From the NCBI GenBank assembly GCA_027364735.1, contig DAHXOT010000048.1, positions 1 to 47,462 on the forward strand: a DNA stretch of 47,462 nt, read 5' to 3'. The notes beneath the pieces were generated by a model. The model did no database searches. It was not told where the DNA came from and saw nothing but the letters and a program-made list of their open reading frames with translations. Positions 18,193 through 45,347 of the stretch are shown piece by piece. This DNA comes from Hydrotalea sp. Its GTDB lineage: Bacteria; Bacteroidota; Bacteroidia; Chitinophagales; Chitinophagaceae. Both the position numbers and the translations under genes were made by a program. Position 1 is the stretch's first letter. Every line of letters starts with the position of its first letter.

Positions 18193-18678
18193 ATGAACAT
18201 GAGAAAAATAATCGTTTTTATTGCAATACTAATAGTTAATAGCAGTTTTGCTCAAACCAGAATTGAAATGCATCAATTGGTGAATTATCTTTTTGATGCA
18301 ATGAACCAGCACAATGCGGCGGCTATTGCTCAGTTATATGCTGAAAATGCAGAAATAGAATCACCTAATTGGGAAGGTGTTAAAAAAGGTGCTGCAAGTG
18401 CTCAGGAAATTTATTCCAGATATTTTACATCTTCTCCCGATTTAAAATATATTATTACCGGTATTTATATAGATTCTGCAACTGTTATAGTAGAATATAC
18501 TTCCGACGGAACAATGCTGCAACTTGAAGCCAACACGCCTAAATATATGCTGGGTAAGCATTATACGCTTAAAAATATTACTCGGTTACAAATTGTCAAT
18601 GAAAAAATTATACGATCTGTTACTTATTTCGATCAGGTTGCTTTTTTACGGCAAGTAGGTTTTTTTGATCAGAAATAA
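18193..18678 (+). CDS. Secreted SnoaL/NTF2-like protein
   Basis: The 161-residue protein has a signal peptide (about residues 1-21, ending NSSFA before Q). The mature part has an NTF2-like fold pattern: HQLVNYLFDAMNQHNAAAIAQLYAENAEIESPNWEGVKKG, then SAQEIYSRYFTSSPDLKYIITGIYI. That is a helix followed by a cone-shaped sheet, as in polyketide cyclase SnoaL and limonene epoxide hydrolase-like proteins. The function is unknown; such proteins often bind small ligands. An alternative ATG two codons in (18199) would also leave the signal peptide intact. It is adjacent to the AAG-type glycosylase gene without an obvious functional link. Confidence 0.72.
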   Translation: MNMRKIIVFIAILIVNSSFAQTRIEMHQLVNYLFDAMNQHNAAAIAQLYAENAEIESPNWEGVKKGAASAQEIYSRYFTSSPDLKYIITGIYIDSATVIVEYTSDGTMLQLEANTPKYMLGKHYTLKNITRLQIVNEKIIRSVTYFDQVAFLRQVGFFDQK

Positions 18679-25755: not shown

Positions 25756-27987
25756 TTACATATTAAACCAATAATTCATTTTAAATACCAATGCCCTGTT
25801 TTTATTTTGTAACAATGGTGTGGTATAGTAATTATCGGTATACACTAAAAACAAATCGCTCATAGGTTTAAAGCGATATTGGAATCGGCTGTTGATATTA
25901 AAATTATTATTTTGAGTATTGTACTGAATGAAAGTTGTCCAAAACATTTTAGTGCTAAAATCGTATTCAATTTTTGGTGCAATTAAAAATAGTTTAGTAT
26001 TGCCATAAGGGTTTGCAAATTGTAAATTATCGTATTCAAAGTTTACCGAAACATTCATGTGGGCAGATTGTCTGTATGTTCCTCCTAAAACAATTGTTGC
26101 TTTTGTGCCATTATAAAAACCACCACCTGCTAATTGCGTATAATAGCTAAAAGGTTTTCTAAAATCGGAAGAGAAGGCAGCAAATGCTTGTGTAAAATTA
26201 TATTGCCCAACAGGCAATGGAGGATAGGCCGAATTGGTAAAAGAAATCGGATATAATAAGTTTAATAAAGTATTGGTTACAGCAAAATTTAAGTTGCTTG
26301 TATTAGTAAACAACAAATTATATTGTAGCCTTGTATCGTGTTCGTTTAAACTATTATTTGGGTTAAAGAAAAAGTCGTTAAAAAAATTAATTCTTCGAGT
26401 ATGTATTGCCGATGTTTTAGAATAAAATGCATACGATACATTATTATAGATTTCTTTATATCCCATTCTAATAGTAGTATCTCGTAGCGCATCGTAATTT
26501 TTTATTCGCAAAACATAACCCATATCGGTATAATAATTAGTGCCAACCGATGCAAAACCGGTATTAAAACCTAAATGCCTTCCACTATACCCAATACCTC
26601 CATTAATAAAATTATTATCGGAATGGATACCCGATTTATAGGAATGATTAAAACTTGCATACGCTTTCCATGAACCCGATAAATTTGAATAATCAAATTC
26701 AGTTCCTGCATTTCTGCCAAAAGCAGTTAATGGATTTTTATTTTTTTGATCCTGTGAAATAAAATTTTCTCTATTAAGTAAATAGGCTTTTATAACCGAC
26801 CGTTTTAATAAATTATGCTGAATTGTGGCAGCCGAATAATTTTCGGCAGTATAACTTCCCTGATTACCGGTTTGAATATTCAAAAAACCTATGCGAGTAG
26901 ATTTATTAATATTTCCTGTTAATCTCAACCCCATTAATATAGGGATAGGATTATTATTAGAGTCTAAACCTATTGTTCTTGAGTAAAAAGGCCTAACATC
27001 ATTTTGCCCCAGTCTTGCAAACAAATCAGAATTTTCTAAAAAAAAACCTCTTTTTTCCGGATAATAAATATTAAATCTTGTGAGATTGGTAACTTGTTTA
27101 TCTACATCAACTTGAGAAAAATTGGGATTAATTGTAAGATCAAGATTTAAGGATGAGGATAATGTAAATTTTCCATCAATACCTGCATTCATTTTTGTGC
27201 TGGTAGGAATATTATTTTCTTTATTTTGGTTGGTATTAGCGATAATATAGGGAATAGCAACTATATTTTTACCGGGTGTTGGTGGTGGTTCATTCCATAG
27301 TAACGAACCGGTAAATCCCAAATCCCAAGATTGAAAATTCACAGGTACATGTGTCCATGTAGAGTACTCATTTGTTTTAGGATCTATTCGAATAAAATTA
27401 ATTCCCCAAACCATTTTATCGGCGGTGTACCTCAATGTTTTAAATGGTATGGCTATTTCTACCGTCCATTTATTTTTATACAATTTTGTAGCTGAATACC
27501 ATTTATTATCCCAACTCCAAGCACCATCGCTGGTTAAAGGAAGTTGGTCTTCGCTTTGGCCGTTAAAAGCGCTTACTACAAAAAAAAATCCATTTATATG
27601 TTGATTGTTGGGGTCAAGAACAATACCAATTCCATCATTGCCATCATGTCCAAAATCTCTTTTTAGTGTTTGGGCAAAAACATTTCCCGAATCGTAAGCA
27701 GTAATTCCAATATATAAATATTTATTATCGTAAGTAACTTTTACTTCTGTGTTTCTGGTAGGTCTTCCTTCATCGTTAGGAAATTTTTTCCAGAAAGGCG
27801 AAGTAGGTTGTGCATTTTTCCAGGCAGCATCGTTTAATATGCCATCCACTTTTACAGGAGAGTTTGTTTTAGAAATAAGCAGTTGATAGTTTTTTTGAAA
27901 AGCCAAATATTGATCATCTTGTTGTGCATATATAAAAGATGATTGAAAACAAATAATTAGCAAAATATAGTGAACAGATTTTATCAA
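25756..27987 (-). CDS. CBM9-like domain/DUF5916 outer-membrane protein
   Basis: The 743-residue protein starts at a TTG (27987); no in-frame ATG lies nearby and the TTG gives a good signal peptide (MIKSVHYILLIICFQSSFIYA before Q). Residues about 40-230 form a carbohydrate-binding family 9-like domain (SPVKVDGILNDAAWKNAQP, VTYDNKYLYIGITAYDS, WTVEIAIPFKTLRY). The remainder is a large beta-rich DUF5916 region (FSQVDVDKQVTNLTRFNIYYPEKRGFFLENSDLF), probably an outer-membrane barrel ending in an aromatic-rich strand. The family's function is unknown. The position next to a GH31 enzyme hints at glycan use, but the two are convergent, so no operon. Confidence 0.85.
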   Translation of the reverse strand: MIKSVHYILLIICFQSSFIYAQQDDQYLAFQKNYQLLISKTNSPVKVDGILNDAAWKNAQPTSPFWKKFPNDEGRPTRNTEVKVTYDNKYLYIGITAYDSGNVFAQTLKRDFGHDGNDGIGIVLDPNNQHINGFFFVVSAFNGQSEDQLPLTSDGAWSWDNKWYSATKLYKNKWTVEIAIPFKTLRYTADKMVWGINFIRIDPKTNEYSTWTHVPVNFQSWDLGFTGSLLWNEPPPTPGKNIVAIPYIIANTNQNKENNIPTSTKMNAGIDGKFTLSSSLNLDLTINPNFSQVDVDKQVTNLTRFNIYYPEKRGFFLENSDLFARLGQNDVRPFYSRTIGLDSNNNPIPILMGLRLTGNINKSTRIGFLNIQTGNQGSYTAENYSAATIQHNLLKRSVIKAYLLNRENFISQDQKNKNPLTAFGRNAGTEFDYSNLSGSWKAYASFNHSYKSGIHSDNNFINGGIGYSGRHLGFNTGFASVGTNYYTDMGYVLRIKNYDALRDTTIRMGYKEIYNNVSYAFYSKTSAIHTRRINFFNDFFFNPNNSLNEHDTRLQYNLLFTNTSNLNFAVTNTLLNLLYPISFTNSAYPPLPVGQYNFTQAFAAFSSDFRKPFSYYTQLAGGGFYNGTKATIVLGGTYRQSAHMNVSVNFEYDNLQFANPYGNTKLFLIAPKIEYDFSTKMFWTTFIQYNTQNNNFNINSRFQYRFKPMSDLFLVYTDNYYTTPLLQNKNRALVFKMNYWFNM

Positions 27988-40723: not shown

Positions 40724-41644
40724 ATGAATAGAATTAGCGTTATTGCCTTATGGAGTTGTTTATTTTTTGTAAGCTGTACCGGTAACAAAAAAAATAAAAT
40801 AAATACTTACGACACTCCTGCTCAGGGAACCATTTATATAAGTGTGGATGAAAGTTTTAAACCCGTAATTGAACAACAAATTAAAGTATATCATTCTTCT
40901 TTCCCCGATACAAAAATTATAGCATCATATAAATCAGAAATAGATTGTTTTAAAGATTTAATGAAAGATAGTACAAGAATGATTATTGTGGCCAAAGGAT
41001 TATCGAAAGATGAATTGAATTTTTTTGAAAATAAACTATCTTTTAAACCACAATATGCTGAATTGGCTTACGATGCAGTTTCGGTAATAATCAACCAACA
41101 ATCGAAAGATAGCGTGTTTACAATGGCCAATTTAAAAAACATATTAAGTGGTAAAAAAAACACTATTGCCGTAATGGATGGAAAAAATGCCACAAGTACG
41201 GTAAGATTTTTGCAGGATAGTGTTTTAAAAGGTACAGCATTTGGTAAAAATGTAGTAGCCGTAAATGGAAGCCAAGCAGTAATTGAAGCTATTAAGCAAA
41301 ATTTAAATGCAATTGGTTTTATTGGCTCTAGTTGGGTAGGAAATATAGAAGAGCCTAAACAAAAAGAAGATCTTAAAACTATTAAGTTGGCATTAGTTGA
41401 ATGTGTTAAGTGTATCGAAAAAGATCTTTTTGCAAAACCTTCGCAAGCAACCATTACTTTTGGGCAATATCCGTTAGCAAGGCCATTATTTTATATTTTA
41501 AAAGAAAATTGGATGGGTTTGGGAACAGGGTTTATGAACTTTTTGAGTATGGAAAGAGGGCAGTTAATTTTTAGACGAAGCGGATTGGCTCCGGCAAAAA
41601 TGAGTTTTTTAAAACGAATCAGTAAAATAAAAGAGCAAGAGTAA
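40724..41644 (+). CDS. PstS-like substrate-binding lipoprotein
   Basis: The 306-residue protein has a lipoprotein signal (MNRISVIALWSCLFFVSC, Cys18) followed by TGNKKNK. The mature part resembles the PstS/PBP-like domain of phosphate-binding proteins: TIYISVDESFKPVIEQQIKVYHSSFPD, YDAVSVIINQQSKDSVFTMANLKNILSGK, and a late GFMNFLSMERGQLIFRRSGLAPA, as in PstS where the final helix reads similarly. No PstABC transporter genes are adjacent, so phosphate uptake by the usual ABC route is unlikely from this locus. It starts one base after the two-helix gene and is followed by the TPR gene. Confidence 0.85.
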   Translation: MNRISVIALWSCLFFVSCTGNKKNKINTYDTPAQGTIYISVDESFKPVIEQQIKVYHSSFPDTKIIASYKSEIDCFKDLMKDSTRMIIVAKGLSKDELNFFENKLSFKPQYAELAYDAVSVIINQQSKDSVFTMANLKNILSGKKNTIAVMDGKNATSTVRFLQDSVLKGTAFGKNVVAVNGSQAVIEAIKQNLNAIGFIGSSWVGNIEEPKQKEDLKTIKLALVECVKCIEKDLFAKPSQATITFGQYPLARPLFYILKENWMGLGTGFMNFLSMERGQLIFRRSGLAPAKMSFLKRISKIKEQE

Positions 41645-41666
41645 TACTAACTATAAAAAAAGCAAA

Positions 41667-43382
41667 ATGAAGTAGCTATCTTTTTTTCTTGTAGCAGCAT
41701 TGCTAACGTTTCAATTTAGTAAAGCACAAACCTTAGCCGATGCAATTAAAATGGTATGTGTAGATAATAAACATCATGCTGCCGATGAATTATTTCAAAA
41801 ATTATATACTGCCAGTCCTAAAGATCCGGAAGTAGTATATTGGTATGTTCAATCTTTAATAGATGGTAATCCAACTAAAGAAGAATTAAACAAAGCAAAT
41901 CAGGTAATTCAAAAAGCATTGAATGAAGGAGTTAATGCACCCTTACTTTGGGTAGCATCGGGACATATAGAATTATTAAATGGCGGAGATATTAATAGTG
42001 CCAAACAAAAATTTGAACAAGCAATTACGGCAACAAAAACAAGAAAAGGAGAAAATCCGGTAATACTTGCCGCAATTGGACGAGCCAATGCCGATGGAGG
42101 CTCTACCATTGGTGACCCTAATTATGGAATAGAAAAGTTAAGGCGAGCAGTCGAATTAAACAAAACAGATCCTGATATTTATGTTAGTATGGGTTTGTGT
42201 TATCGTAAATTGGGCAGCGATTTTGGTGGTCAGGCCGTACAAGCTTTTACCGAAGCAATTAATCGCGATCCTAAATGCGCCAAAGCATATTATCAAATCG
42301 GAAAAATATATCTAAGCCAAAGTAATAAAGATGCTTTAGAAGAAAATTTCAATAAAGCACTAAATGCCGATCCTACTTTTGCACCAGCTTATCTTTCACT
42401 ATTTACCTATTATGCTGATAAAGATGTAAACAAAGCAAAAGGATACTTGGATAGTTTTTTAAAATATGCCGATAAAGATCCGGAAAATGATTTCTTCTAT
42501 GCCGATTATTTATTTCGTGCAGGAAAGTATAATGAATCTATTGCAAAAGCAAAAGAAATTGAAGCCAATACCGTTGCAAAACCTTTGCCTAAATTAAATG
42601 GGTTATATGCATTTGATTACGATAGATTAGGCGATTCTGTTAAAGCAAGATATTATATACAAAAACTTTTTGAAACGGCTCAACCGAAAGATATTTTAAT
42701 AGAACATTACAATCTTGCCATTAAAATATTTTCTCGTTTTCCGGGAATAGAAGATTCGGCTATTGTATACATACAAAAAGCAATGGATGCAGATACATTA
42801 AAAACCGATAAAATTAATTATGCCAATCAAGCCGCAGATATTTGGGAAAAGGCAAAAAATTATCCCGAACAACTAAAATGGTTACAAAAAGTGGTTGCAT
42901 TAAAAGGTTCTGCCGGTGAATATGAATACTATAAATTAGCTACAGCTGCTTTTAATGCAAAAGATTATGTGCAAACCATGTCTATTGCAAAAGATTATAT
43001 CAATTCTTTTCCCGATAAACCTCAAGGATATTTTTTCAATGTGCGAGCAGCAAAACTTATAGATACAGCTACAGCAATAGAACCCCTTATTCAGCAAAAT
43101 GATTTTTTGATGAAGGATACCACCAAAAATAAAAAAATCATTTTCAATAATGATTATTTTCTGTTGGTATATTATGCCGAAAAATTAAAAGATAATACCA
43201 AAGCATTAGAAATTTGTGATAAAATGTTAGAGTTATATCCAACGCCCGGAGAAGAAAATGAATTTGTATTAAAAACCAAAGAAGTATTAGAAAAGGCCTT
43301 ATCAGCACCAAACAATAAACAGCCTGTTCAAAAAAACGACAATGCTTCCAAAAAATCATCCAATAAGCAATCACCCAAATAA
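41667..43382 (+). pseudogene. TPR-repeat protein with in-frame amber codon at codon 3 of its signal peptide
   Basis: The frame starts with an ATG at 41667, 22 bases after the PstS-like gene, but codon 3 is TAG (41673-41675). After it the frame is open for 569 codons. Ignoring the TAG, the protein opens MK-x-LSFFLVAALLTFQFSKA before Q, an ideal signal peptide. The body has tandem TPR units (for example PEVVYWYVQSLIDG, PDIYVSMGLCYRKLG, AKAYYQIGKIYLSQSNKDALEENFNKAL, PAYLSLFTYYADKD) and a Ser/Lys/Asn-rich tail. TAG ends other genes here (rsgA, rimM), so it is not reassigned. A TTG at 41700 could restart translation but would keep only half of the signal peptide. Either a sequencing or assembly error at 41673 or a true nonsense change fits. 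Confidence 0.8.
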
Positions 43383-43470: not shown

Positions 43471-43869
43471 ATGCATTGGCTTTTGTTGGCTTCAGATGCT
43501 ACTAATAATTCAGCTTACAGTTATTTTCCTATTGGCATTCAACTGATTTTTGCAGCAGGCTTTGTGGCATTTATGATTGCATTATCTCAATGGGTAGGGC
43601 CAAAGAGAAAAACAAACGATAAGTTGCAAAATTTTACCAGTGGTATTGCCAGTCATGGCGATGCCCGACAGCCAATGGCCATTAAATATTTTTTAGTGGC
43701 TATTTTATTTGTATTATTCGATGTAGAAGTTATTTTCTTTTACCCGTATGCCGTAAATTTTAGAGAATTGGGCTGGGCTGGTTTTGGTGCTGTTGTAATG
43801 TTTGTATCCTTCTTTTTATTGGGTTTTATATACATTATTAAGAAAGGAGCACTAAAATGGGAAGACTAA
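43471..43869 (+). CDS. nuoA: NADH-quinone oxidoreductase subunit A
   Basis: This is a membrane-arm subunit of complex I, near the quinone site. The 132 residues hold three hydrophobic helices (IGIQLIFAAGFVAFMIAL, YFLVAILFVLFDVEVIFFYPYAV, FGAVVMFVSFFLLGFIYII). The conserved loop motif is PKRKTNDKLQNFTSGI, in place of the usual ExYECG sequence: no Cys is present, consistent with Bacteroidota-type NuoA. FDVEVIFFYPYA is the family signature. It is the first gene of the nuo operon, 50 bp after the upstream terminator's stem. Confidence 0.93.
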   Translation: MHWLLLASDATNNSAYSYFPIGIQLIFAAGFVAFMIALSQWVGPKRKTNDKLQNFTSGIASHGDARQPMAIKYFLVAILFVLFDVEVIFFYPYAVNFRELGWAGFGAVVMFVSFFLLGFIYIIKKGALKWED

Positions 43870-45116: not shown

Positions 45117-45158
45117 TAAGGCAATTTGATAAAATATTTTTCGATAAACATACATTTT

Positions 45159-45347
45159 ATGAATAAAATTAATTACTGGATTCAGGCCAACAAAGCAAAA
45201 TGGTACGGCAGTATCAGTATGGTGGCTTTGTTAATTTTTTTATTTGTGAAGAATGGTTTTTGGAATGGTGTTGCAGTGGGAATGTTTACTGTATCTTTTT
45301 TTTATTTTCTTGGAATTTTAATTAAGCGAATAAAAAATAATAAATAG
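45159..45347 (+). CDS. Small membrane protein within the nuo operon, function unknown
   Basis: From the ATG at 45159 the frame encodes 62 residues (a TTG start at 45126 would add 11 poorly coding residues). It has a short hydrophilic N-terminus (MNKINYWIQANKAKWYG), a hydrophobic helix (SISMVALLIFLFVKNGF), a second (VAVGMFTVSFFYFLGILI) and a basic end KRIKNNK. It has no resemblance to a complex I subunit that I know. It lies 42 bp after nuoC and 89 bp before nuoD, same strand. Confidence 0.6.
   Translation: MNKINYWIQANKAKWYGSISMVALLIFLFVKNGFWNGVAVGMFTVSFFYFLGILIKRIKNNK

Follow-up and report, generated by a model that had tools for sequence, protein, structure and literature searches.

Is the conserved TPR gene that precedes the nuo genes in this Hydrotalea genome truly interrupted at its third codon, does the interruption reflect a wrong base in the assembly, or is the protein still made by another route? 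The window (the whole stretch of DNA analysed, 47,462 nucleotides of contig DAHXOT010000048.1) reads ATG at 41667-41669, AAG at 41670-41672 and TAG at 41673-41675 on the + strand, and the TAG is followed by 568 sense codons and then TAA at 43380-43382. The original prediction had described ATG AAG TAG at 41667-41675 in frame with a 569-codon frame, which agrees with 568 sense codons plus the stop. It had also described a signal peptide followed by Q once the TAG is skipped, and the first residues encoded past the TAG were LSFFLVAALLTFQFSKA-Q, comprising a hydrophobic run and then a plausible cleavage site. Judged by its appearance and by the N-termini of orthologues, LSFFLVAALLTFQFSKA is plausibly signal-peptide-like. 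A start further upstream in the same frame was rejected, since any such frame still runs into the TAG. The features of the locus are as follows.

40724-41644, + strand: intact upstream neighbour encoding a PstS-like binding protein (PBP; PF12849), directly before the TPR gene in 13/13 loci tested
41637-41666, + strand: A-rich leader for translation from the ancestral ATG, 65% A in its last 20 nt, with A at -3 and -6
41667-41669, + strand: ancestral ATG start codon; an ATG stands in frame at the equivalent position in 79 of the 80 best-matching loci (124 confirmed)
41673-41675, + strand: TAG at codon 3, the lesion; ATG-codon-stop at the start in 0/79 orthologues
41676-41726, + strand: remaining signal-peptide-like coding part (LSFFLVAALLTFQFSKA), cut off from the ATG, placed by by-eye alignment with orthologue N-termini
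41700-41702, + strand: TTG, the first in-frame ATG/GTG/TTG past the stop, with 15% A in the 20 nt upstream and G at -3 and -6
41727-43382, + strand: coding part for the mature TPR protein, open to the TAA (Pfam TPR families above cut-off; AlphaFold mean pLDDT 89.5)
43471-43869, + strand: intact downstream neighbour nuoA (PF00507), directly after the TPR gene in 13/13 loci tested

To place the stop in its family context, we compared the N-termini of orthologues. Relatives of the TPR gene were confirmed at 124 loci, of which the best 80 (43-64% identity to the window gene) were kept. At the matching place, 79 of these 80 have an in-frame ATG from which a signal-peptide-like N-terminus begins. 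The start was picked as the most upstream ATG whose next codon begins with AA, or else the most upstream ATG, and the open frame from the picked ATG is given by construction of this rule. The residue at codon 3 was lysine in 75 of the 79 orthologues (codons AAG 48, AAA 27, CAA 2, AGG 1, ACA 1; residues 2-3 KK 72, NK 3, KQ 2, KR 1, KT 1), consistent with the Lys codon originally proposed to have been lost. None of the 79 carried an in-frame ATG-codon-stop at its start. Orthologues beginning at the TTG position had been named in advance as evidence against the proposal; these were looked for and were likewise absent from the 79. In the 80th locus (L118, Sediminibacterium salmoneum) the MKK start is intact, but a one-base frameshift at an A-run just past the signal peptide (L118:3850-4060) puts it out of frame with the rest of the gene. 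In one further locus (L011), a stop was located only after 567 codons, close to where the match ends. All 29 loci fetched from relatives in a separate search had an ATG in open frame ahead of the match; these represent best matches only, and some of their genomes may recur among the 80.

The surroundings of the gene were also conserved. The order of genes for a small protein (77 aa in the window), PBP, TPR, nuoA, nuoB and nuoC was recovered by tblastn in all 13 loci tested among the 80 best matches (124 confirmed). In the window, nuoA is followed by what we take to be nuoB, nuoC, nuoD and nuoE (PF01257), the nuo names being assigned from Pfam domain and gene order. A small hydrophobic 73-aa open frame with no Pfam match lies between nuoC and nuoD (45126-45347, + strand). 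Orthologue leaders averaged 60% A, and TATAA occurred within 30 nt upstream of the start in 52 of the 79. With the ancestral start, the A-rich leader and the gene order all kept, the TAG looks private to the window genome.

The window protein scored above the Pfam cut-off for TPR_11, TPR_19, TPR_16, TPR_14 and others, and all of its NCBIfam matches were below cut-off. An AlphaFold model of the 560 residues counted from the TTG, built on 33 aligned rows, was nearly all-helical, and pLDDT fell below 50 only at residues 1-9, ahead of the cleavage site, and in the tail (539-560). Foldseek retrieved generic TPR solenoids (query TM-scores 0.18-0.45 among the top 50 matches), giving no functional lead among those matches. 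Three matches were counted in the gene's own genome, and among the matches listed were the gene itself and a 270-aa frame on contig 11. A scan of viral contigs found no relatives of the protein.

Three outcomes had originally been offered for this locus: an assembly error, a very recent mutation, or restart at the TTG. The last of these, in which initiation at TTG 41700 yields a working protein, we consider improbable. This codon is in frame and only 24 nt past the stop, and TTG starts can function in bacteria, as in Staphylococcus aureus selw (PMC7593966). The window gene resembles selw in having no usable ATG and an in-frame TTG, and differs from it in that the window TTG sits inside the signal peptide region. 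Only 9 residues (mean hydropathy 0.47) would remain ahead of the cleavage site, which could hardly form a signal peptide, and no orthologue among the 79 begins there. The context is also poor, with 15% A upstream of the TTG versus 65% at the ATG. In Flavobacterium johnsoniae, also a member of the Bacteroidetes, adenine at -3 favours initiation (PMC6847099). Restart is therefore disfavoured as a means of keeping an exported product.

A variant of restart would make the stop adaptive: the two-codon mini-ORF ending 24 nt before the TTG might permit reinitiation and a lowered yield of non-exported TPR protein, amounting to attenuation rather than loss. We rate this as highly unlikely. It recalls the two-codon minigene of axe-txe (PMC8708949), in which an ATG-codon-stop also stands ahead of a possible restart, at a distance of 15 nt compared with 24 nt in the window. 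The window locus differs from that system in that the unit stands at the start of 0/79 orthologues and in that the TTG context is unsuitable. None of the 79 orthologues has a two-codon mini-ORF at its start or in the preceding 60 nt; three of them (L047, L053, L059) carried an out-of-frame ATG-codon-stop 46 nt inside the gene.

The full protein could also still be made if a suppressor tRNA or leaky termination allowed the TAG to be read through, as the intact frame behind it would permit. This too appears very improbable. A CUA anticodon was found in none of the 30 tRNA loci scanned and none of 18 pattern places held a tRNA gene, so no amber-suppressor tRNA was seen, with 150 of the 185 candidates scored. 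The list obtained in this way is incomplete, as it lacks tRNAs for Ala, Asp, Ile and Tyr, and this leaves some room for read-through. Against it, release factor 1 (RF1) is present in the genome and TAG serves as an ordinary stop. Among 43 main reading frames selected from the window, 42 terminate within it, using TAA (31), TAG (8) and TGA (3). The TAG-ended frames include the four cited originally, namely rsgA and rimM (both by Pfam), an amidohydrolase and the 40489 frame. The original statement that TAG is not recoded genome-wide fits these counts and the presence of RF1, and the TAG at codon 3 has no bearing on the genetic code. In a separate observation on the window's reading frames, the DUF5916/CBM9 gene (25756-27987, - strand) has no ATG ahead of its signal-peptide-like N-terminus, and its first in-frame ATG/GTG/TTG is a TTG.

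The string itself is ordinary, as ATGAARTAG occurs at 166 places genome-wide and a reversed-pattern control at 229. What distinguishes the present instance is the frame behind it. Among 35 distinct places, made up of those in the 30 loci fetched from the 166 and the one in the window, a long open frame followed at one only, with 568 codons here and 47 and 46 at the next longest.

We then asked how old the lesion could be. The relative rate of the TPR gene, defined as the distance of the window gene to six outgroup loci relative to that of its four nearest loci, was 1.09, close to that of PBP (1.08; nuoA 1.02, nuoB 0.99, nuoC 0.97). This suggests, with some reservation, that the lesion is recent or not real. 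In the TPR frame, 5.8% of random single substitutions create a stop. At 2% neutral divergence, roughly half of what separates the window from the same-genus genome described below, approximately two new stops would be expected and none was seen behind the TAG, which bounds the age only loosely. The reservation comes from the protein alignment. At near-invariant columns the window protein departed at 5 of 74, the most of the 33 rows (0-4 in the other 32, and 0 in the four nearest kin), and its end branch was 0.48 versus 0.08-0.28 for its nearest kin. Together, these departures and the longer end branch could hint at an older relaxation of constraint. In TTG-based numbering, the five departures are G50V (41847), Y70I (41907), G86A (41955), K317R (42648) and K346R (42735). 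The original claim of no decay fits the open frame and the rate like that of PBP, and needs qualifying for the conserved columns and the end branch.

This leaves a real mutation or a wrong base. If the mutation is real, a nonsense substitution would have hit codon 3 of the TPR gene in the sequenced strain or population, with the T at 41673 truly in the organism's DNA. Ribosomes starting at the ancestral ATG would make Met-Lys only and then stop at the TAG, little or no exported TPR product would be made, and decay would not yet have had time to reach the mature frame, leaving it intact. A wrong base would predict an undecayed frame equally well. Furthermore, of the 35 other members of the family that were searched, 21 contained strong relatives (E <= 1e-40), and a true null allele of a gene this widespread should therefore be rare.

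Alternatively, the T at 41673 may be a consensus error (from sequencing, assembly or strain mixture) in an intact gene. Besides the otherwise undecayed and conserved state of the gene, a T7 run lies nearby (41681-41687), the draft genome comprises 54 contigs, and the one-base shift beside an A-run in the L118 copy may itself be such an error. Comparison with a same-genus genome (95-97% nucleotide identity to the window around the locus) bore on the quality of the assembly. Its contigs end at window-equivalent positions 41082 and 43764, with the TPR gene falling in the gap between them. The absence of the gene from that genome therefore results from an assembly gap and says nothing about the stop. 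Across 34 window frames compared in whole or in part (30.1 kb summed, overlaps counted twice), divergence was 4.2%, and no other broken gene body was found. The 29 gap-free frames contained 751 synonymous and 255 non-synonymous codon differences and no internal stop in either genome. The stop count excluded the five gapped frames (29860, 43471, 16742, 18193, 23345), all of which are open in the window. Their gaps were confined to a few bases at either end of the gene, with the exception of one compensated pair at 18264 and 18267. The lack of internal stops and the position of the gaps at gene ends argue against a generally error-ridden assembly. Single substitution errors are also rare in a good short-read consensus.

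Taking these points together, we put the chance that codon 3 truly and recently acquired a nonsense substitution, inactivating this conserved, predicted exported TPR protein, at about even, and regard a consensus error as a serious contender of somewhat lower probability; both weights were judged, not measured. The original prediction of a codon-3 nonsense change in a healthy, predicted exported TPR gene is supported, in that it is compatible with the tests made. Either way, the locus most likely reflects an ordinary one-letter loss or a sequencing error, and not a new mechanism. If the base is real, the strain has very recently lost a conserved, predicted envelope protein. For annotation, a gene caller may choose the TTG and so report a cytoplasmic protein that, in contrast to other family members, lacks a signal peptide. 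Our literature search found no paper joining pseudogenes, metagenome-assembled genomes, sequencing errors and premature stop codons.

Among the closest known counterparts is the TPR protein encoded between the PstS-like gene and nuoA in Chitinophagaceae and their kin. The window gene shares with it 43-64% identity (best 80 of 124 loci), identical neighbours in 13/13 loci tested and an identical N-terminal layout, and differs in its interrupted start. In a recent nonsense pseudogene, one stop codon interrupts a bacterial gene that is intact in all other respects. The window gene departs from such pseudogenes in that its stop falls as early as codon 3 and in that its T is a base we infer to be present in the DNA. 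It resembles them in that its frame carries one stop and is free of further lesions, and in that relatives have intact orthologues. We regard the window case as ordinary: one changed base, from mutation or consensus error, in a conserved TPR gene.
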